From contig DATLZA010000153.1 in NCBI GenBank assembly GCA_035574235.1, positions 1-35,404 on the forward strand: 35,404 nucleotides of DNA, written 5' to 3'. Below, one piece after another: positions 16,534-31,563 of this stretch (position 1 is the stretch's first letter; each line of letters begins with the position of its first letter). Source of the DNA: Planctomycetota bacterium. Its GTDB lineage: Bacteria > Planctomycetota > MHYJ01 > JACPRB01. Below the pieces are notes generated by a model, which did not search any database, had not been told where the DNA came from, and saw nothing but the letters and a program-made list of their open reading frames with translations. The translations under genes and the position numbers were made by a program.

Positions 16534-17283
16534 ATGGCTTCGCGCAAGATCGACGCTCTGATTCCGCTCCAGGAGCTGGATCTCCAGATCCATCGTCTCA
16601 GGGTCCAGCGCGCCGAAAAGCCCCGCCCGCTCGCCGCCTCGGAAGAAAAGCTCGCCCACGCCCGCCGGAATCTCGAGGCGCTGCAGGCCGAAATCAAGGC
16701 CCTGAAGCTCGAAGGTCAGAAGCGCGAGCACGCCGTCAAGGAGTACGACGAGAAGATCGCCAAGCTCCAGGCCCAGGCCCTCCAGGCGCGCAAGAACGAC
16801 GAATATCAGGCCTTCCAGAAGGAAATCTCCGGCGTCAAGGCCGACAAGGGACGCGTGGAGGACGGCCTGCTGGACATCTACATGCAGATCGACGAGAAGG
16901 CCAAGCTCGAGAAGGTCCGGCAGGAGGAGCTGCGCCAGGCCGAGTCCGAGCACGCCGCCGCCCGCAAGAAGGTCGAGGGGGAGATCGAGGAGCTCGACCG
17001 CCAGATCGAGGAGCTGCTCTCGCGCCGGCAGGGGGTGACCTCCGCCGTGGAGAAGGACGTGCTGCGGCTCTACGAGCGGATTCTCGAAGCCAAGGAGGAC
17101 GGGACGGCGCTGGCGGCGGTCGGGAAGTACGAGGTCGTGGAGGAGGAGGGGAAGGTCACCTACTGGCAGTGCGAGGGGTGCGGCGTGGGCCTCAACATGC
17201 AGGACGTCAACCTTCTCATGATCGGCAAGGATCTTCAGACCTGCCGCAACTGCTCCCGGATTCTCTTCCTCAAGCCCCAGTAG
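16534..17283 (+). CDS. Coiled-coil protein with C4 zinc ribbon (PF02591-like)
   Basis: A 249-residue cytoplasmic protein. Residues about 10-185 are almost unbroken charged heptads (LEALQAEIKALKLEGQKREH, EGEIEELDRQIEELLSRRQG), so two antiparallel long helices are likely. The C-terminus carries CEGCGVGLN and CRNCSRIL, a four-cysteine zinc ribbon. This is the layout of the widespread 'C4-type zinc ribbon domain' family, with a conserved 'ARKNDEYQAFQKEI' stretch. Chlamydial CdsZ belongs to this family and acts on the type III secretion ATPase; other members have no settled role. It has its own promoter. Its last 14 bases overlap the end of the convergent STAS-FHA gene. Confidence 0.8.
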   Translation: MASRKIDALIPLQELDLQIHRLRVQRAEKPRPLAASEEKLAHARRNLEALQAEIKALKLEGQKREHAVKEYDEKIAKLQAQALQARKNDEYQAFQKEISGVKADKGRVEDGLLDIYMQIDEKAKLEKVRQEELRQAESEHAAARKKVEGEIEELDRQIEELLSRRQGVTSAVEKDVLRLYERILEAKEDGTALAAVGKYEVVEEEGKVTYWQCEGCGVGLNMQDVNLLMIGKDLQTCRNCSRILFLKPQ

Positions 17284-17959
17284 CCCCCGGTCGGCATCCC
17301 GCCGGATAGAAGGCCAGCCTCACGTCGGCCACGCGGAAGACGTCCCGCGCGCGCAGCGGCTCGTCCGTCACGCGGCGATTCCCGATCCAGGTTCCGAAAC
17401 GGGTGCCCAGGTCCTTGAGGAAACAGGCGTCCCCGTTGCGGTACACCTCGGCGTGACGCGGATCCGCCTCGGGGTGCCGCACCACGATCGTGCAGCGGGG
17501 ATCGCTGCCCACCCGGAGGGACGTTCCGACGATGGGGAATTCGACGCCCTCCTCGGGCCCGTCGAGGGGCACCACCCGCGGCGACCGCTCCAGCCGCCCC
17601 GCCTGCGTGCGCAGGTAGGCGCGGGCGGCTTCCGCGCCGGCCTCGAAGCGGAAGTAGCTCTGCATGCCGAGATTGTTGAAGATCACCTTGACCTTGGGCT
17701 GGACGTCCACGAGCACCAGCGCCCCGCCGCGGCGCTCGAGGGTCGCCGCCAGGTCCATGAGATAGCCGAAGCCGGCGCTCGTCACGTAGGAGACGTTTCC
17801 CATGTGGATCGAGACGAACGTGGTGCGGGCGTCCAGAACGCGGTCCAGCCGCTCCTTGAGGAGCGCGGCGTTGGAGGCGTGGACGCCGCCCTCGACGAGG
17901 ATTTCCAGCGAGCGCGGCAGGTCCAGGATGGGCGAGGCGCGAAGGACGAGCTCGGGCAT
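17270..17959 (-). CDS. STAS domain-FHA domain protein
   Basis: A 229-residue cytoplasmic regulator. Residues 1-110 form a STAS (anti-sigma-factor antagonist) domain; SYVTSAGFGYLMDLAATL keeps Ser at the usual phosphorylation position, and LVLVDVQPKVKVIFNNLGMQ is the following strand-helix. Residues about 140-215 have an FHA fold (LRVGSDPRCTIVV, PRHAEVY, LKDLGTRFGTWIGN), but the phosphothreonine pocket looks altered: GR reads GS, the Ser of SRxHA is Asp, and the Asn of STNGT is Phe. STAS proteins are usually switched by an anti-sigma kinase; none is in the window, although two Ser/Thr kinases are. A TAGAAT -10 box ends 6 nt before the ATG. It overlaps the convergent zinc-ribbon gene by 14 bases. 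Confidence 0.85.
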   Translation of the reverse strand: MPELVLRASPILDLPRSLEILVEGGVHASNAALLKERLDRVLDARTTFVSIHMGNVSYVTSAGFGYLMDLAATLERRGGALVLVDVQPKVKVIFNNLGMQSYFRFEAGAEAARAYLRTQAGRLERSPRVVPLDGPEEGVEFPIVGTSLRVGSDPRCTIVVRHPEADPRHAEVYRNGDACFLKDLGTRFGTWIGNRRVTDEPLRARDVFRVADVRLAFYPAGCRPGATGA

Positions 17960-21116: not shown

Positions 21117-21207
21117 TGGTGGAGGGGGCGGGATTCGAACCCGCGAGTCGGCGGAACCGACTACCGGTTTTCAAGACCGGCCCAATCGACCGCTCTGGCA
21201 CCCCTCC
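21117..21207 (-). tRNA. tRNA-Ser (anticodon UGA), class II, CCA encoded
   Basis: Acceptor GGAGGGG (21201-21207) pairs with CCCCTCC (21121-21127). The anticodon stem CCGGT/ACCGG holds loop CTTGAAA with anticodon TGA. A long variable arm and T-arm GCGGG-TTCGAAT-CCCGC follow, and CCA is at 21117-21119. The discriminator (21120) is A, whereas the other two serine tRNAs here have G. Confidence 0.95.
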
Positions 21208-21771: not shown

Positions 21772-23112
21772 TCACGACCGCAGCAGAAGCCACGCGAAGG
21801 CCCCCGCGGCCGCCGCCGCCGCGGCCGCCCAGAGCGCGATCCTTAGCGGAGAGCGACCCGCGGCCTCCGGCCGGCTTCCTTCCGGCCCGACCGGAATCCC
21901 CACCGCCTTGCGCAAGGCCGCGATCGCCTCCGGCAGCGTCCGGTAGCGCTGCGACGGCTGCTTGGCGCAGATCTTCCGCAGGACGGACTCAAGCGCTTCC
22001 GGAACCTCCGGATTGTGCGGACGTACGGGCGGCAGCGGGTCGTGAATCTGCTTGCGCAAGGTTTCAACGAGGCTGCGGCCTTCGAACGGCTTGCGCCCCG
22101 TGAGCATCAGGTAGAGGAGAATCCCGCACGAATAGAGGTCCGCCGGGGGGCCCGCGGATTCGCCCATCGCCTGCTCCGGCGCCATGTAGGCCGGCGTTCC
22201 CACGACGTTGCCGGAAAGGGTCAGGATCGTGTTGGCCTCCGCGTCCTTGGCCAGCCCGAAGTCGATCACCTTCGCGCGTCCGTCCGCCGTCAGAAGCACG
22301 TTCGCCGGCTTCACGTCCCGATGCACGACGCCGCGGCCGTGCGCGTGATCGAGCGCCGAAAGAATGTCGCAGACGATTTCGACCGCCCGCCGCGGCGGGA
22401 GCTTCTTCTCCCGCACGATGAGGTCCACGAGGGACCCGCCCTCGACGTACTCGGACACGATGTACGTGTGCGGGCCGTCCTGGCCCATCTCGAACGTCTC
22501 GACGATGTTGGGATGCTGGAGCCGGAGGGTCGTGTCCGCCTCGCGCTTGAAACGCCCCTGGATGCCGGGCATCCGGCTGTACTCCTCCGTGAGGATCTTG
22601 ATCGCCACCTTCCGGCCGGTCTGGGCGTGTTCGCCCAGGTAGACGGCCCCCATGCCTCCCTTGGCGATCCGGCGGACGACGCGCCAGGTCCCGATCGTGC
22701 GTCCCTCGAAGGGATCCTTCCGCGCCGCCGCGGGCGCGGCCGCCGGGGCGGCCGGCGCCGGCGCCCCGCCGCCGCCCAGGATCTCCTCGGCCACGATCTC
22801 GAGATAGGCCCGGCAGGGCTCGCACTTGTAGCGGCGCTGCGCCTGGAAATCCGGAACGGTGAACCGCCGGCGGCACTGCGGGCACCGAAGGACCGCCGTG
22901 CCCTGATGAGCCACGACGCGCGCCACCTGCTCGGGCGGCGCCGCCCCCAGGTTCAGGACGACCTGGGCCAGCGTGAGCGACACTCCCTGGTCGCGGAAGC
23001 CCTTCTGCGTGGCCAGGCATTCCTGGAGCTTGGCCTCCGTGAGAACGCCCAGGCGCACGAAGAGCTCCGGCTCGGGTTCCCGGATTTCGGCCGTCGCCAT
23101 GGCGAGGCCCAT
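21772..23112 (-). CDS. Membrane-anchored Ser/Thr protein kinase with GspE-N-like and zinc-ribbon N-terminus
   Basis: A 446-residue Hanks-type kinase. Residues 16-75 (ELFVRLGVLTEAKLQECLAT ... LTLAQVVLNLGA) resemble the N-terminal domain of type II secretion/pilus ATPases (GspE/MshE-N). Cys77, 80, 97 and 100 form a zinc-ribbon-like knuckle. After an Ala/Pro linker, the kinase domain (141-400) has the Gly loop AKGGMGAVY, VAIK Lys172, HRDVKPAN (Asp266), DFG (Asp284-Gly286) and GTPAYMAPEQ, so it should be active. A C-terminal helix (LRIALWAAAAAAAAGAFAWLL, 423-443) anchors it as a tail, with the kinase in the cytoplasm and almost nothing outside. ATG 23112 has GGGAG 10 nt upstream; ATG 23100 is possible. 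It is divergent from the larger kinase, which shares the N-terminal domain. Confidence 0.9.
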   Translation of the reverse strand: MGLAMATAEIREPEPELFVRLGVLTEAKLQECLATQKGFRDQGVSLTLAQVVLNLGAAPPEQVARVVAHQGTAVLRCPQCRRRFTVPDFQAQRRYKCEPCRAYLEIVAEEILGGGGAPAPAAPAAAPAAARKDPFEGRTIGTWRVVRRIAKGGMGAVYLGEHAQTGRKVAIKILTEEYSRMPGIQGRFKREADTTLRLQHPNIVETFEMGQDGPHTYIVSEYVEGGSLVDLIVREKKLPPRRAVEIVCDILSALDHAHGRGVVHRDVKPANVLLTADGRAKVIDFGLAKDAEANTILTLSGNVVGTPAYMAPEQAMGESAGPPADLYSCGILLYLMLTGRKPFEGRSLVETLRKQIHDPLPPVRPHNPEVPEALESVLRKICAKQPSQRYRTLPEAIAALRKAVGIPVGPEGSRPEAAGRSPLRIALWAAAAAAAAGAFAWLLLRS

Positions 23113-23180: not shown

Positions 23181-23288
23181 TCCTGATGGCCCAGGCGTCT
23201 CCGGGGGGGTAGGGCCCGCCGGCGCGGCATTTCCATCCGGACCGCGGTTCGTCGCCGACCGTCGCCTGCGGCCCGGTTGGAGCCGGAC

Positions 23289-26200
23289 GTGACGGAACTT
23301 CAAGGATCGGGAGATGTCGGCCGCCAGCTGCTCCTGGGCAAGAAGCTCCTGGAGCGCGGGTTTCTCACCCCCGATCAGCTCCGCGAAGCCCTGACCGAAC
23401 GCGCGCAGAGCCTTTCCCAGGGAAATCCCCGGCCGCTGGCGGCGATCCTTCTTCAAAAGGGATTCGTCACCGAAAGCCAGCTCCGGATCGCCCTGGACGA
23501 GACGTCCGGGCAGGCTTCCTCCCCCCGCGCTTCCTCCGCGTCCGCCGCCTCCGCGCCTCTTCTGGCCCCCGCTCCGACGGCCTCCGCTCCGGAACGGCTG
23601 GGGAAATACGAGCTCCTGCGCGAACTGGGCCGCGGCGGCATGGGCGTCGTCTACGAGGCGCGCGACGCGGACCTCGGCCGCAAGGTCGCCCTCAAGCTCA
23701 TGATCACGCCGGCCGGGGCCGATCCCAAGGAAGTCGCCCACGACGAGGAGCGCTTCGTTCAGGAAGCCCAGCTGACCGCCAAGCTCAAGCACCCCAACAT
23801 CGTCACCGTCTACGAGGCGGGGATCCTGGACGGCCGCCGCTTCATCGCCATGGAGCTCGTGGAGGGGTTGCCCTTCTCCCAATGGCGCAAACAGAGCGGT
23901 GCGTCCCTCAAGCAGCAGGTGGCGGTTCTGCGCGACGTGGCGCTGGCCGTCCATCACGCGCACGAGCAGGGGGTCCTCCATCGGGATCTCAAGCCGCGCA
24001 ACGTTCTCGTTTCCCCGGACGGGCATGCGTACGTCACCGACTTCGGACTGGCCAAGCCGCTGGGGACGAAGGTTCACGCCTCCCTCACCGGCTCCGGGGC
24101 GGTCGTCGGCACGCCCGCCTACATGAGCCCCGAGCAGGCTCAGAGCGGCCACCGGGTCGATTGGCGGACCGACATCTGGTCCCTCGGGGTCATGCTGTAC
24201 GAGATCCTGACGGACCGGACGCCGTTCACCGGGGAGTCGCCCCTCGAAATTCTGATGAAGGTGGTCAAGGACGACGTCGTTCCGCCCAGCCGGGCGGCCA
24301 CGGGCGCCGCGGCGCGCGAGATCGACAAGGCGATCGAGAACGTCTGCCTGAAGGCCCTGGCCAAGCGGGACCGGGACCGCTACCCGACCGCGCGGGCGTT
24401 CGCGGAAGATCTCACCCGGTGGCTTTCCGGCCAGGAAGTCCGCACCGTGGCGCCCCGGCCCGTCCGGAAGCCCTCCTACGTGCGGGCGGCCGTTCTGGGG
24501 GCGGCGATCGGCGTCGCCGGCGTCGGAGGGCTCATGCTGGCCGTCTCCGTGCGCCGCCCGTCGGTGACCGCGGAGCTCGCGGAGGCTCACCGGCACATGG
24601 ACGAGGAAAACTACACGGAGGCGCTGATCGCCTTCACCCGCGCGCTGGCCAAGGATCCGGAGAACGCCGGGGCGATCGAGGGGGAGCGCCGCGCCCGCGA
24701 GGCGCTCCGCCGGAAGTCCCTCGAGCGGGAACAGCAACTCCGGGCCGCGCTGGAGGCCGCCCGGGGGGACGCCGAACGCGCCCGGCGCGAGGCGGAAGAG
24801 AAGGCCCGCGCGGAGGAGCGGGCGCTTTCTCCCGAGGAGCGCGAAGCCCTGGCCGCCCAGCGTGCCGCCGCCGAGGAGCGCGCCCGCCGCGCCGAGGAGG
24901 AGGCGCGCCGGGCGGACGAGCAGCTGCGCCTCACCCGGGGCGTCCCCGCGGCGCGGCCGTCTCCCGGAACGGGCCCGGCGGACGACGCATGGAAGGACGC
25001 CGTCAACCTCCTGGGCGTCGTGGAGCTTCCCCGGAACGTCGTTTCCGGCACCTGGACCTGGAGGGAAGGGGCCCTCGCGTCCGGACGGGAACCCTTCGCG
25101 CGCGTGGAAATCCCGTACGTGCCTCCTGAGGAGTACGACCTGCGGGTCGTGTTCCGCCGGAAAACCGGGACGGACGCCGTGGCGCTCATTCTCGGCGCGC
25201 GGGGCGGCGCGCCGATCGTCTGGGCGCTCGGGGCCGCCGGGAATACCTCACTGGCGCTTCGCCCGCCGCCCGTCGAAGGGCCTCCTCCGGTCGGTCCGCC
25301 GGTCCTGGAGAACGACCGGCCGTACACCGCCGTGATCCAGGTGCGGCGGCAGCGCGTCCGGGCGCTTCTCGAAGGACGCCTCGTGGAGGAGCGCGAGGGA
25401 AGCTTGGAGGAACCGGCGTCGGATCCTTCCTGGAGGCTCGGGGGGGACGCGGTCCTGGGGCTCGGAAGCCATGAAAGCCCGGCCGTCTTCCAGCGGGTGG
25501 ATCTTCTGGAGGTCACGGGACGCGGGCGCCGCGCCGTTTCGGCGCCGATGCCGGTCTTCGTTCCGCCCTCCCGTTCCGGGGCGCCCCTTCGGCCGGGCCT
25601 GGTCGGCGAGTACTACTACGGGGCCAACTTCGAGGCGCTCGCCCTGCGCCGCGTGGATCCGGTGGTGAGCTTCGAATGGGGCGAGGGCCCGCCGTGGACG
25701 GGCGGTCCGAAGGACGCCTTCTCGGCTCGCTGGCGCGGGTACCTCCACGCCCCGCGTCCCGGCCGTTACACCTTCTCGGTGGAGGCCGACGACGGAGTGC
25801 GCGTCCGCCTCGACGGCCGGCAGATCCTGTCGAGCTGGGGGCTTCACGCGGAGCCGCCCAAGCCCGTGGCGTGCGTGCTCGAGGAGGGCTACCACCGCCT
25901 GGAGGTGGACTACTACGACCGCGCGTACCGGGCGTCGATCACCCTCCAGTGGGCGGAGGGATCGGGCGGTGCGGCCGCTCCCATCGGCGCGCGTTCGCTG
26001 TTCCACGACCCTTCCGAGTTTCAGCCCCTGCCCGTCCAGCGCGTGACGGAACTCATCGCCGTCCTGGCGGGGCACTCGAACGTCGTCACGGGCGTCGCCT
26101 TCGCTCCGGACGCGAGCTTCGCGGCGACGTCGGGCGAGGACCGCCGGGTGCGGATCTGGGATCCCGTGACGCGCCGCGAGGCGTCCTCGCTGGGCGCGAC

Positions 26201-26933
26201 GCCCTCGGGGCTTCTGGCGGTGGCGGTTTCGCCGGACGGCCGTTACGTCGCCGCGGCGGGGGCCGACGGGCGCGTGCGGGTGTGGGAGGGCGGCCGGGGG
26301 CCCGAGATCCGCGTGCTGGAGGGCCATGCGGGGCACGCGTCGTCGCTGGCGTTCCACCCTTCGGGGCGCCTGCTGGCCTCGGGCGGATACGACCGGAAGA
26401 TCCGGCTCTGGGAGGTGGACGGCTGGAAGCTGCGGCGCGAGCTGGAGGGCCACGGCGGCTCCGTGGACGGCCTGGCCTTCTCGCCGGACGGAACGATGCT
26501 GGCTTCGGGCGGCGCGGACCGGCGCGTGCGCGTCTGGGACGTGGAGTCCGGCCGGGAGCGGAAGGTCCTGGACGGGCACGCGGACGGGGTGACGGCCTGC
26601 GCGTTCAGCCCGGACGGGACGCTCATCGCGTCGGCGGGGCGCGACACGCTGGTGAAGCTGTGGGATCCGGAGACGGGACGCGAGCTGCGCCGTCTGCGGG
26701 GCCACACGGGGGAGGCGCTTTGCCTGGCCTTCAGCCCGGACGGGAGGCTTCTGGCCTCGGGCGGAGCGGACGCCATGGTGCGGCTGTGGGATCCCGCCAC
26801 GGGGAAGGAAGTCCGAATCCTTCCGGGACACGGGGACCGCGTGACCGGCGTGGCGTTTTCGCGCGTCGGGGCGCTCCTGGCCTCCGTCGGTTCGGACACG
26901 TCGGTCCGGCTCTGGGACGTGAAGTCCTGGTAG
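23289..26933 (+). CDS. Ser/Thr protein kinase with TPR, coiled coil, PA14 and seven WD40 repeats outside the membrane
   Basis: About 1214 residues. GTG 23289 is chosen because GGAG (23279-23282) lies 6 nt upstream; TTG 23277 is the longest alternative. Order: GspE-N-like domain (about 10-75: LLLGKKLLERGFLTPDQLRE, LLQKGFVTESQLRIAL); Ala/Ser linker; kinase (about 103-370) with GRGGMGVVY, VALK, HRDLKPRN, DFGLAK and YMSPEQ; transmembrane helix (about 397-421). Beyond the membrane come a TPR-like unit, a Glu/Arg/Ala coiled coil (about 470-552), a LamG/DUF1080-like beta domain (about 565-750), a PA14 domain (about 767-907: LVGEYYYGANF, YTFSVEADDGVRVRLDG) and seven WD40 blades (about 920-1214: LAFSPDGRLLASGGADAMVR). 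PA14 commonly binds glycans, so an envelope-sugar sensor is plausible (inference). A PilZ-HEAT gene follows after 14 bases. Confidence 0.92.
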   Translation: MTELQGSGDVGRQLLLGKKLLERGFLTPDQLREALTERAQSLSQGNPRPLAAILLQKGFVTESQLRIALDETSGQASSPRASSASAASAPLLAPAPTASAPERLGKYELLRELGRGGMGVVYEARDADLGRKVALKLMITPAGADPKEVAHDEERFVQEAQLTAKLKHPNIVTVYEAGILDGRRFIAMELVEGLPFSQWRKQSGASLKQQVAVLRDVALAVHHAHEQGVLHRDLKPRNVLVSPDGHAYVTDFGLAKPLGTKVHASLTGSGAVVGTPAYMSPEQAQSGHRVDWRTDIWSLGVMLYEILTDRTPFTGESPLEILMKVVKDDVVPPSRAATGAAAREIDKAIENVCLKALAKRDRDRYPTARAFAEDLTRWLSGQEVRTVAPRPVRKPSYVRAAVLGAAIGVAGVGGLMLAVSVRRPSVTAELAEAHRHMDEENYTEALIAFTRALAKDPENAGAIEGERRAREALRRKSLEREQQLRAALEAARGDAERARREAEEKARAEERALSPEEREALAAQRAAAEERARRAEEEARRADEQLRLTRGVPAARPSPGTGPADDAWKDAVNLLGVVELPRNVVSGTWTWREGALASGREPFARVEIPYVPPEEYDLRVVFRRKTGTDAVALILGARGGAPIVWALGAAGNTSLALRPPPVEGPPPVGPPVLENDRPYTAVIQVRRQRVRALLEGRLVEEREGSLEEPASDPSWRLGGDAVLGLGSHESPAVFQRVDLLEVTGRGRRAVSAPMPVFVPPSRSGAPLRPGLVGEYYYGANFEALALRRVDPVVSFEWGEGPPWTGGPKDAFSARWRGYLHAPRPGRYTFSVEADDGVRVRLDGRQILSSWGLHAEPPKPVACVLEEGYHRLEVDYYDRAYRASITLQWAEGSGGAAAPIGARSLFHDPSEFQPLPVQRVTELIAVLAGHSNVVTGVAFAPDASFAATSGEDRRVRIWDPVTRREASSLGATPSGLLAVAVSPDGRYVAAAGADGRVRVWEGGRGPEIRVLEGHAGHASSLAFHPSGRLLASGGYDRKIRLWEVDGWKLRRELEGHGGSVDGLAFSPDGTMLASGGADRRVRVWDVESGRERKVLDGHADGVTACAFSPDGTLIASAGRDTLVKLWDPETGRELRRLRGHTGEALCLAFSPDGRLLASGGADAMVRLWDPATGKEVRILPGHGDRVTGVAFSRVGALLASVGSDTSVRLWDVKSW

Positions 26934-26947
26934 AACGGAGGAGCGGG

Positions 26948-29839
26948 ATGAAAGGCGGGACGGAGCGGAGAAAGTATCCACGGTCGAAACCGGAACCCGG
27001 AACGTCGATCGCGGTGACGGCGGGAGACGGATCGGACGAGCCGAATCTGGCGCTGCGGCTGATCGACGTGAGCGCGATCGGCGCGTGCGTGGAGACGCCG
27101 CGGCCGCTGGCGGAGGGGGGCGAGGTTCGGGTCGAACTGATTCTTCCGGGCCCGGGCGGGGGGCGATTCTCAAGGCGCGGGACCGTCCGCTGGGCGCAGT
27201 CGCTCGAGGCGGGCGGAGCGCGCTCCCATGTGGCGGGGCTCGAGTTCGAGCCGCCGGTGGAGGCGCTGGCGGGCCGCGCCGGCGAGTCGGCGGTTCTCGA
27301 CGTGCTCCTGACGCTCCGGATCGCCGTGGCGCAGCTGCGGCTTTATCCCAAGGACAGTCCGCAGGTCCTCAAGGTGCTCACGGATTGCTACCACTCGGTT
27401 CATTCGTATCTGACGCACGCGGCGTCGCTGACGCTTTCGCGGACCGAGCGGGGGCTTCTGGTCAACGGCCGTCCGCTTCCTCCGGCCGGGACGGTGAGCG
27501 AATCGCTGGAGGCGGCGGCGCTCGGGCTTCTTTCGGACGCGCAGGTGAAGAGCGTGACTTTCTCGAAGGGGCTGACGCTGGAAGAGCTGGGGACCTTCCT
27601 GCACGCCCTGACGCGGAAGTTCTGGGACGTGAAGGACGGAAAGGAGATCAACCGGCGGCTGCGGGCGGAGCGGGTGCTGCGGGTGTCGGTGGACGAAGTG
27701 ACCTATGTGGCGCTGGGGGAAGGGGATCTGGTCATCCAGGACGCGGCCCGGAAGCTCGAGGGGTCGAAGACGGAGCTGGGGAGGCTTCTGGAAGGGCTCG
27801 ATCAGCTCGTGGAAGCCGCGGAACAGGGCGGTCACGGCGGGGAAGGGCGGATGCTTCTGGTGAAGCGTCTCCTCGAACGGGATCCGGGGCTTCTGGCGAG
27901 GGTGCAGGGAGGACCGACCGGGGAAGGCGGGGCGGGGGAAGGCGGGGCGGCGCCGGGGACCGGAAGGATTTCGTTCGAGGCGGCGCGGGACGCGCTGGGG
28001 GATCTGGCGCGGGTTCTGCCGTCGGCGCCGGAGAATCTCCGTCCGGTGCTTCGCCGGGTGGGGCGGACGCTGGCGGACGCCTTCCGTCACGATCCGAATC
28101 TGGCGGCGCTGATGGAGGGGCTTCTCGAGGAGGTTCGGGAGGAGCGGCCGGCCGCCGTGGAGTCCGGGGGATCGGGGGCGGAGCGTCGAGCGGGGGAGAT
28201 CCTGGCTCTGGCGGAGGACGAGCGGATCGCCGCGATGGCTCAGGAGGGGCCGGGGCTTCTGGACGAGCTGGCGGCGCTGGGGAAGCCCCAGGCGGTGCAG
28301 GGACTACTCGAGGCGCTTTCGGGGAGTCTGGCGGACCGCTCGGCGCGGCGGCGCCAGGCGGCGGCGCGGGCGCTCAACGGGCTCCGGAGGGCTCTCGAGC
28401 GTCACGCTCCGGAGGAGGCGCTCGAGGCGGTCGAGGTCATGGCGCGTTCGGCGCTGGACGGGGAGCGGGACGCGCAGGCGTACCCGGCGCTGGCGGATCT
28501 GGCGGGGTTTCTGGCGGATCTTCGGTTGCGGCGGGGGCGGCTCGAACGGGCGCGCGAGATGGTGGAGCTGCTGGAGCGGCACGACAAGATCCGCGACCCG
28601 TCGTTCCCCCAGCGGGGGAATTTCGCGTACATGGCGCTGGAGCGTCTGGCGCTGGGCCCGGGGTTCGCGGCGCTTTCGGATCGGATCCGAGGGGGAGACG
28701 CGGAGGCGTCGAGGCTCGTGGAGGCGCTGGGGGCGGCGGCGACGCGGTTTCTCCTGGGGCTCATGAAGCAGGCGGAATCGCCGGCGGAGCGGATGCGGCT
28801 GGCGGGGTTCATCGTGCGGGCGGGTCCGGGGGCGGCGGCGGTTCTGCTCGACGAGCTTCAGAAGACGGCGGCGCCGTCGGATGCGGTGCGGATGCTCGAA
28901 GCGATTCCGCACGCGATGCCGGCGGACATGGCGGAGATGGCGCTGGTGGGGCTCCTGCGCCATCCGGCGCTGATGGTGCGGCGGCGGGCGGCGGCGCTGG
29001 CGGCGGAGCAGGGGTATCCGCGCGCGGGGGCGGCGCTCCTGGAGGCGTACCACGCGGAGGAGGAGGCCGGGTCGCGGCGGGCGCTGGTCGAGTGCCTGGG
29101 GCGCGTGCGGTACCGGGGGGCGGTGGAAGACTTGGCGGCGACGGCGGAAGGGAGGACAAATCCCGCGGATCTGCGGGTGGCGGCGTGTCTGGCGCTCGGG
29201 AAGATCGGCGACGCGCGGGCGGTGCCGGTTCTGGCCCGGATCTGCCTGAAGGGCGAGAAGGGAATCACGGGGATTCTGCGGTCGGTGCCCGCGGAGGTGC
29301 GCGCGGCGGCGGTGCGGGCGCTTTCGCTTTTTCCGGACGACCGGGAGGCGCGGGAGGCGCTGCGGAGGGCCCAGGAGGATCGCGACCCGCAGGTGCGCGC
29401 GGCGGCGCTTCAGGCGCGGGTGGCGCCGTTTTTCGACGCCTTCGGCGCGGCCGCCGAGGGGGTCCGGGTGGTGGCTTCCGAGCGGGAGATCGACGGTGTG
29501 TCGGGAACGTTCGGGGGGACGCTCCGGGACGTGCCGTTCGCGGCGCTGTGCGGGCGCCTGGCGGGGCTGGAGCAGAGCGGGGGACTCCAGGTCGCGTGCG
29601 GCGGGTCCTCGGGGCGGATCTGGTTCGACGCGGGGCTTGTGATCGCGGCGGAGTTCGAGGGGCGCCGGGACGCGGAGGCGTTCGCGGCGCTGGCGGACCC
29701 GCGGCGGTCGGAGGGGCTCTTTCTCTTCCGCGGGGGGGAGATGCCCCCGGAGCGCCGGGTGCTTCTGACCGTCGAAGGGCTTTTCGAAGGGCTGCGGGAG
29801 CGGGGCGGAGGGCAGGGATCCTCATCGAGGTTCGTCTGA
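26948..29839 (+). CDS. PilZ-HEAT repeat-DUF4388 protein, candidate c-di-GMP receptor
   Basis: 963 residues. The ATG at 26948 follows GGAGGAG (26937-26943) by 4 nt, in an operon with the kinase. Residues about 5-105 form a PilZ domain with both c-di-GMP motifs, RRKYPR and DVSAIG. Residues about 110-260 are a conserved mixed region ([40 protein letters not shown]). A long Ala/Arg/Glu-rich alpha-solenoid follows, with HEAT-like units clearest at about 560-840 ([60 protein letters not shown]). The C-terminus (about 855-945) is a DUF4388/PATAN-type domain ([47 protein letters not shown]). Such domains act in surface-motility and polysaccharide signalling. No membrane segment is seen. A protein-protein scaffold read by c-di-GMP is inferred. 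Confidence 0.85.
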
Positions 29840-29863: not shown

Positions 29864-29953
<90 letters not shown>

Positions 29954-31298: not shown

Positions 31299-31388
31299 TG
31301 GCGGAGAGGGTGGGATTCGAACCCACGGGCCCCTTGCGGAGCCACTCGCTTTCGAGGCGAGCCCGATCAACCGCTCCGGCACCTCTCC
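31299..31388 (-). tRNA. tRNA-Ser (anticodon CGA), class II, CCA encoded
   Basis: Acceptor GGAGAGG (31382-31388) pairs with CCTCTCC (31303-31309). The anticodon stem CTCGC/GCGAG holds loop CTCGAAA, anticodon CGA. A long variable arm and T-arm GTGGG-TTCGAAT-CCCAC are present. Discriminator G (31302); CCA at 31299-31301. Confidence 0.96.
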
Positions 31389-31478: not shown

Positions 31479-31563
31479 GGGCGCGTGGCGGAACCGGCAG
31501 ACGCACCGGATTTAGGATCCGGCCCCGAAAGGGATGGGGGTTCGAATCCCTCCGCGCCCACCA
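31479..31563 (+). tRNA. tRNA-Leu (anticodon UAG), class II, CCA encoded
   Basis: Acceptor GGGCGCG (31479-31485) pairs with CGCGCCC (31553-31559). The anticodon stem CCGGA/TCCGG holds loop TTTAGGA, anticodon TAG. A variable arm (GCCCCGAAAGGGAT) and a T-loop (TTCGAAT) are present. Discriminator A (31560), then CCA. Confidence 0.95.

Follow-up and report, generated by a model that had tools for sequence, protein, structure and literature searches.

A PilZ-MID-HEAT-DUF4388 protein encoded next to a membrane Ser/Thr kinase in a planctomycete genome

The locus and its two proteins

In the window (the whole stretch of 35,404 nucleotides that was analysed) a large membrane Ser/Thr kinase is followed on the same strand by the gene of a 963-residue multidomain protein (P0001), hereafter the scaffold, and a second kinase gene diverges from the pair. 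The features of this region, in window coordinates, are as follows.

21772-23112, minus strand: divergent Ser/Thr kinase, 446 aa (Pfam Pkinase, E 1.9e-56); the neighbour is in the same place in the related genome G001
23277-26933, plus strand: membrane Ser/Thr kinase, 1218 aa, with an MshEN-like N-terminus, kinase domain, transmembrane segment (by eye), PA14 and seven WD40 stretches (Pfam)
23331-23504, plus strand: MshEN-like tandem 24-residue motifs, kinase residues 19-76, Arg and Gln positions degenerate (NF053729 and motif scan)
26937-26943, plus strand: Shine-Dalgarno sequence GGAGGAG, 4 bases before the scaffold ATG
26948-29839, plus strand: PilZ-MID-HEAT-DUF4388/PATAN scaffold (reading of the open frame, Pfam and AlphaFold2)
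26963-27256, plus strand: PilZ domain, residues 6-103, RxxxR and DxSxxG intact (Pfam PF07238)
27263-27739, plus strand: MID, an unnamed alpha/beta domain of about 150 aa, residues ~106-260 (21-member and 86-member alignments)
28169-29437, plus strand: HEAT alpha-solenoid, residues 408-830 (Pfam HEAT_2, AlphaFold2, PDB alignment)
29516-29782, plus strand: DUF4388 (PATAN) without helical insertion, residues 857-931 (Pfam)
29864-29953, minus strand: tRNA-Ser(gga), convergent to the scaffold gene (ARAGORN)

The TAG stop codon of the kinase occupies 26931-26933, so that the gap before the scaffold ATG at 26948 is exactly 14 bases (26934-26947), the spacing given in the original prediction, and the scaffold has its own Shine-Dalgarno sequence inside it. 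No further plus-strand gene joins the pair before tRNA-Ser(gga). The latter is one of three scattered tRNA-Ser genes on the minus strand (the others are tga, 21117-21207, and cga, 31299-31388); a tRNA-Leu(tag) lies on the plus strand (31479-31563), and spurious open reading frames overlie the tRNA genes of the window. Elsewhere in the window, a STAS-FHA fusion (17270-17959, minus strand) is a possible phosphopeptide-reading protein of the anti-anti-sigma-like type.

The catalytic domain of the upstream kinase is well delimited (Pkinase, residues 111-371, E 1.7e-46; HRD, as HRDLKP, and DFG, the Hanks-type hallmarks, are readable in the sequence), and Pfam finds PA14 at residues 772-893 as well as WD40. 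Hanks kinases with a WD40 or PA14 sensor half abound in planctomycetes; few of their targets are known, as far as we are aware. The N-terminus scores 35.1 bits against NF053729, just under the cut-off of 38. According to the accessible text of PMC5013675, MshEN consists of two motifs of 24 residues each, in which Arg and Gln make the contacts, and of a 5-residue spacer, and these c-di-GMP receptor domains occur also beside Ser/Thr kinase domains. The window kinase likewise starts with two such motifs in tandem and keeps their hydrophobic frame, but both Arg and Gln are lost here and in the G001 counterpart, one Gly is replaced in the window kinase, and the spacers are 10 and 12 residues long. 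For these reasons we have rejected an intact c-di-GMP receptor at this end of the protein, and, with the Arg and Gln gone, c-di-GMP may have no binding site on the kinase itself. Pfam proposed DUF4388 instead of MshEN for the same stretch, with weak E-values that we have taken as a resemblance between helical hairpins. The N-termini of the window kinase and of the kinase at locus L042 weakly match both MshEN and the insert region of DUF4388; judged by this similarity, the helical insertion of PATAN and the hairpins of MshEN may be related.

The original prediction had described the scaffold as an intact PilZ signature, a long alpha-solenoid and a C-terminal DUF4388. The three domains are confirmed, but MID, the best-conserved one, had been overlooked, as had the MshEN-like N-terminus of the kinase, so that the description was right but incomplete. 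PilZ matches Pfam at E 2.7e-9 (37.7 bits, above the cut-off of 22.5), with R8xxxR12 and D40-V-S42-A-I-G45 both present. HEAT_2 is found at E 9.7e-16, and in the AlphaFold2 model residues ~410-830 form a HEAT solenoid (pLDDT > 90 for the most part), to which HEAT and alphaRep chains of the PDB align at Z ~21. In P0001 alone DUF4388 stays below its cut-off of 25 bits (19.8, E 8.6e-4, and 22.6); the assignment is nevertheless secure because all four members of the family match, the best at E 1.4e-17. DUF4388 is, we assume, the PATAN domain, of which an alpha-helical insertion is reportedly typical, as Makarova is said to have described in 2006. Here 75 residues match 95 profile positions (Pfam) and the AlphaFold2 model has no helix pair between strands at 878-903, and thus the scaffold ends in a short DUF4388 and not in a canonical insertion-bearing PATAN. 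The model of the whole scaffold (25-row alignment; mean pLDDT 78.7, pTM 0.50) is confident for MID and for the solenoid, intermediate for PATAN and poor for PilZ (pLDDT mostly 32-64).

Conservation of the gene pair and its family

We found an ortholog of the scaffold, at ~50% identity, in G001 (JAHFOZ01, Planctomycetota MAG nzgw515), a member of the family to which the window genome belongs, but of another genus. There the genes follow one another on contig C75 in the order seen in the window.

C75:6147-7550, minus strand: divergent kinase, with an N-terminus of the same kind as that of the window divergent kinase
C75 from 7833: PA14/WD40 kinase, its frame interrupted by a stretch of N in the assembled sequence
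C75, start 11591: PilZ-MID-HEAT-PATAN gene

The PA14/WD40 kinases are 52% identical over residues 14-660 and 45% over 653-1215, and the gap before the scaffold gene of G001 measures a few bases (in the coordinates of L010, the same locus, 1493 is the last position of the open frame before it and 1498 the first of the gene). The outer flanks differ between both genomes; in the window, a TadA-like gene (by eye) and a tRNA-Ser stand on one side, and on the other a second tRNA-Ser with a Memo-like gene. Between the orthologs, identity is 65% in MID, 52% in HEAT, 44% in PATAN and 43% in both PilZ and the linker.

A full-length relative of the scaffold appeared only in G001, among 59 genomes (the own and related ones), the 23 genomes of the class and a phylum sample of 392 genomes, the latter searched with the PilZ-MID segment. 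Among the matches listed for the class genomes (E <= 1e-60), a near full-length counterpart of the kinase was also found only in G001, the other genomes matching by the kinase region alone. Within the family (n=5), full-length counterparts of both genes are present in two genomes and neither gene in three (for the kinase, among the matches listed), these three being drafts 88, 91 and 64% complete. A single-protein scan of the genome contigs with the scaffold gave no match, nor did tblastn of P0001 against plasmids, and a search of the contigs with a 3-row alignment found two G001 loci only; the loci were read directly as open reading frames. Since the scaffold is present in only two genomes, the conservation of the pair rests on a single comparison. 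The loss of linkage in relatives had been proposed as a way to refute the pairing, and in G001, the only relative that has both genes, they are linked. Co-transcription of kinase and scaffold is very likely.

The label of orphan, under which the protein had been introduced, has to be dropped, because besides the ortholog there are two paralogs and the scaffold is better described as a rare protein that belongs to a small family.

G001, contig C628: MID-HEAT-DUF4388 paralog without PilZ
Own genome (G000), region C121:2114-6532 (L044): MID-DUF4388 paralog without PilZ and HEAT

The C121 paralog adjoins a GARS-like ATP-grasp gene and MotA/MotB-like genes, and upstream of an internal GTG its frame shows no ATG, GTG or TTG start codon. 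Near the MID-HEAT-DUF4388 paralog of G001 a similar protein was noticed by eye (L043:2678-3970).

That kinase, MID-HEAT and DUF4388 act together is best indicated, if indirectly, by proteins in which a kinase is fused to one of these modules. Genome G039 encodes a kinase-FHA-DUF4388 protein, and G091 has three kinase-GGDEF-AAA16-MID-MID-HEAT proteins of 1768-2135 aa with a weak GGDEF, two of them confirmed by Pfam.

L168:3597-10001, minus strand: kinase-GGDEF-AAA16-MID-MID-HEAT protein
L170:4465-9798, plus strand: kinase-GGDEF-AAA16-MID-MID-HEAT protein
L170:9961-15264, plus strand: kinase-GGDEF-AAA16-MID-MID-HEAT protein

We thus have good confidence that the kinase and the scaffold are partners.

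The MID domain

MID, as we have named scaffold residues 106-260 in the present analysis, is the most interesting part of the protein and the element most worth following. It had no Pfam match in P0001, and among the 21 members of the alignment no Pfam or NCBIfam family recurred (any one Pfam family appeared in at most 2 of the 21, with E up to 1, and any one NCBIfam family in at most one), while PDB sequence matches were at chance level only. The AlphaFold2 model built from 86 MID sequences is confident (mean pLDDT 89.9, pTM 0.84) and has the predicted order H-H-E-E-H-E-H-H-E. Searched with this model, Foldseek gave no PDB match at E <= 0.001 (best E 0.29), a BFVD search gave none at the same threshold, and the best VIA-align hit (Z 6.4) covers 49 residues, which belong to the helical hairpin. 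Some weak Foldseek rows were GAF-like, one of them being the c-di-GMP receptor PelD; at E 0.29 to ~1 and TM ~0.2 we have not accepted them as homologues.

The 21-member alignment was used as a profile (A2), against which P0001, itself a seed row, scores 170.6 bits (E 4.4e-50). With it, MID was detected in 77 of the 392 planctomycete genomes of the phylum sample (E <= 1e-6), about a fifth. To describe its company we have taken a census of 67 distinct open reading frames, left from 127 copies after removal of duplicates; they come from fetched loci (40 hand-chosen regions and earlier ones), are a subset of all profile matches, and some are cut by contig ends. Their domains were assigned by home-made profiles with Pfam-confirmed seeds. 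MID proved commonest in GGDEF-AAA-MID-MID-HEAT and MID-REC-SpoIIE proteins: GGDEF, AAA16 and MID occur together in 22 of the 67 (three of these with an N-terminal kinase), MID with REC and/or SpoIIE in 23, and AAA16-MID without a detected GGDEF in five. The remainder are MID-HEAT (4), PilZ-MID-HEAT-DUF4388 (2), MID-HEAT-DUF4388 (1), MID-DUF4388 (1) and proteins with no other domain detected (9). An [A/G]GDEF signature is kept in only 9 of the 22 GGDEF-bearing proteins, and many of these cyclase domains may therefore be inactive. The window genome itself encodes a GGDEF-AAA-MID-MID-HEAT protein (contig C27), in which the signature scan found no GGDEF-type signature.

We know of no name for either the GGDEF-AAA16-MID-MID-HEAT or the MID-REC-SpoIIE proteins of Planctomycetota; similar 'LYPPGHP' N-termini presumably exist in bacteria outside the phylum. 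The scaffold shares MID with both classes and HEAT with the first, and differs from both in having PilZ and PATAN.

A possible c-di-GMP-gated partner of the kinase

Judged by its gene content, the window genome makes and reads c-di-GMP, with 11 GGDEF, 10 PilZ, 12 DUF4388 and 13 T2SSE profile rows. The original prediction had invoked a GGDEF-EAL protein in the same window. The protein is real (2-2356), but ~24.6 kb separate it from the scaffold and the genome has 11 GGDEF rows in all, so its presence says little and we have rejected it as evidence of linkage. PilZ domains that do not bind c-di-GMP usually lack RxxxR and DxSxxG. Both motifs are intact in the scaffold and in its G001 ortholog, and from this signature the PilZ domain of the scaffold probably does bind c-di-GMP. 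An intact motif is not unusual here, since a profile picked up eight distinct stretches of PilZ in the nine loci looked at, and six of them fit RxxxR...[DN]xSxxG.

The scaffold is a multidomain PilZ effector of a known kind, with a new combination of domains. PlpA, PixA and PixB of Myxococcus are reportedly PilZ effectors with added output domains. The PilB-PilZ-FimX complex of Xanthomonas is, in the accessible part of PMC11580455, another PilZ effector system. The window protein resembles all of these in its PilZ (here with intact motifs) and in a plausible control of pilus motors; it adds MID, the HEAT solenoid and PATAN in one polypeptide and is linked to a transmembrane kinase. A second comparison is offered by the PATAN-REC regulators PixE, PixG and LsiR of Synechocystis, of which PixE binds the motor ATPase PilB1, as far as the accessible text goes (PMC9090330, PMC7690835). 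The scaffold has PATAN/DUF4388 in common with them, but has no receiver, carries PATAN at the C-terminus without helical insertion, and would take its input from c-di-GMP and a kinase instead of a phosphorelay. Literature searches found no description of PilZ with DUF4388, of PilZ and HEAT with c-di-GMP, or of PilZ and c-di-GMP in planctomycetes; among the papers listed on c-di-GMP in planctomycetes, and among those on PilZ, threonine kinases and c-di-GMP, none dealt with this combination, judged by title.

The Synechocystis precedent and a group of genes in the own genome point to a pilus or secretion motor as the likeliest target of the scaffold. This group (C24:1-12187, L087, ~12 kb) comprises an MglA-like GTPase, Roadblock/LC7, TPR, a 1044-aa DUF4388 protein that also has TPR and a PQQ propeller, a weak PilZ, a PilB-like protein (MshEN and T2SSE) and a PilT-like one, and is possibly a polarity/pilus control cluster. 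The window operon, however, is not beside pilus genes, and its PATAN is a short one. By analogy, an output on a type IV pilus or secretion motor through PATAN is a plausible assignment that we hold with some reserve.

Kinase and scaffold would then form a two-gene signalling unit. The MshEN-like and catalytic half of the kinase would be cytoplasmic, and its PA14/WD40 half, on the outside, might sense contact with a surface or matrix. The scaffold would be soluble, its PilZ reading c-di-GMP, as its motif suggests; MID, which recurs beside GGDEF, receiver, phosphatase and kinase domains, may couple it to other signalling proteins or to itself; and the predicted HEAT solenoid would carry binding surfaces. 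The output machine on which the C-terminal PATAN would dock is most likely a motor ATPase of the PilB type, serving type IV pili or secretion, as suggested by the cyanobacterial PATAN proteins and by DUF4388, PilZ, MglA/MglB-like and PilB/PilT-like genes found together in the genome. The scaffold is probably a substrate or a binding partner of the kinase, so that the output would fire when the surface signal and c-di-GMP are both present. Taken as a whole, this mechanism is a tentative proposal.

It is unlikely, although a serious alternative, that the unit is real and its PilZ binds c-di-GMP but the output is a flagellar-type stator or surface polysaccharide/secretion. PilZ proteins act on many outputs, the PA14 and WD40 of the kinase are compatible with cell-surface sensing, and the MotA/MotB-like neighbours of the C121 paralog suggest a different motor; that paralog, however, is without PilZ and HEAT. 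As for the surface polysaccharide of the original prediction, a Pfam scan of 17 window proteins revealed none for polysaccharide synthesis, and PATAN points, by analogy, rather to type IV pilus or secretion motors.

Rather less probable is a PilZ that serves for protein contacts only, the scaffold being a phospho-regulated HEAT scaffold of its kinase. Family members without PilZ keep MID, HEAT and DUF4388, PilZ is much less conserved than MID between the orthologs, and its model is of low confidence, but the motifs that non-binders usually lose are intact in both proteins. We also consider it improbable that MID-HEAT is the core and MID a homotypic docking domain gathering GGDEF-AAA-MID-MID-HEAT and MID-REC-SpoIIE proteins and bringing cyclase, phosphatase, kinase and PilZ reader into one complex: the tandem MID of the GGDEF-AAA proteins, the REC-SpoIIE class, the C27 protein of the same genome and the conservation of MID speak for it, whereas the C27 partner is without a GGDEF-type signature and MID has no fold match suggesting dimerisation. 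Finally, an accidental adjacency or housekeeping co-expression without functional contact, compatible with the one comparison genome and with a kinase family very large in the class (dense kinase matches among those listed), is hardly credible when three genes stay together at ~50% identity with changed flanks and the kinase is fused elsewhere to MID-HEAT and to DUF4388.

If the preferred reading of a c-di-GMP-gated scaffold partnered with its kinase is true, the pair would join Hanks-kinase and c-di-GMP signalling in a manner for which our literature searches found no description, and the kinase would gain a concrete candidate substrate in its conserved, probably co-transcribed neighbour, itself a probable reader of c-di-GMP. 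MID has no name in the searched libraries and mostly accompanies signalling modules, and it offers a way into a whole class of regulators that lack annotation. It is conceivable, though we would hold this wider picture only loosely, that in MID the Planctomycetota have a common signalling domain not yet described, wiring together c-di-GMP enzymes, receiver-phosphatases, kinases and PilZ readers, and that the window operon is a compact circuit of two proteins, the transmembrane WD40/PA14 kinase and the PilZ-MID-HEAT-PATAN scaffold, which would gate together a motor of type IV pili or of secretion.
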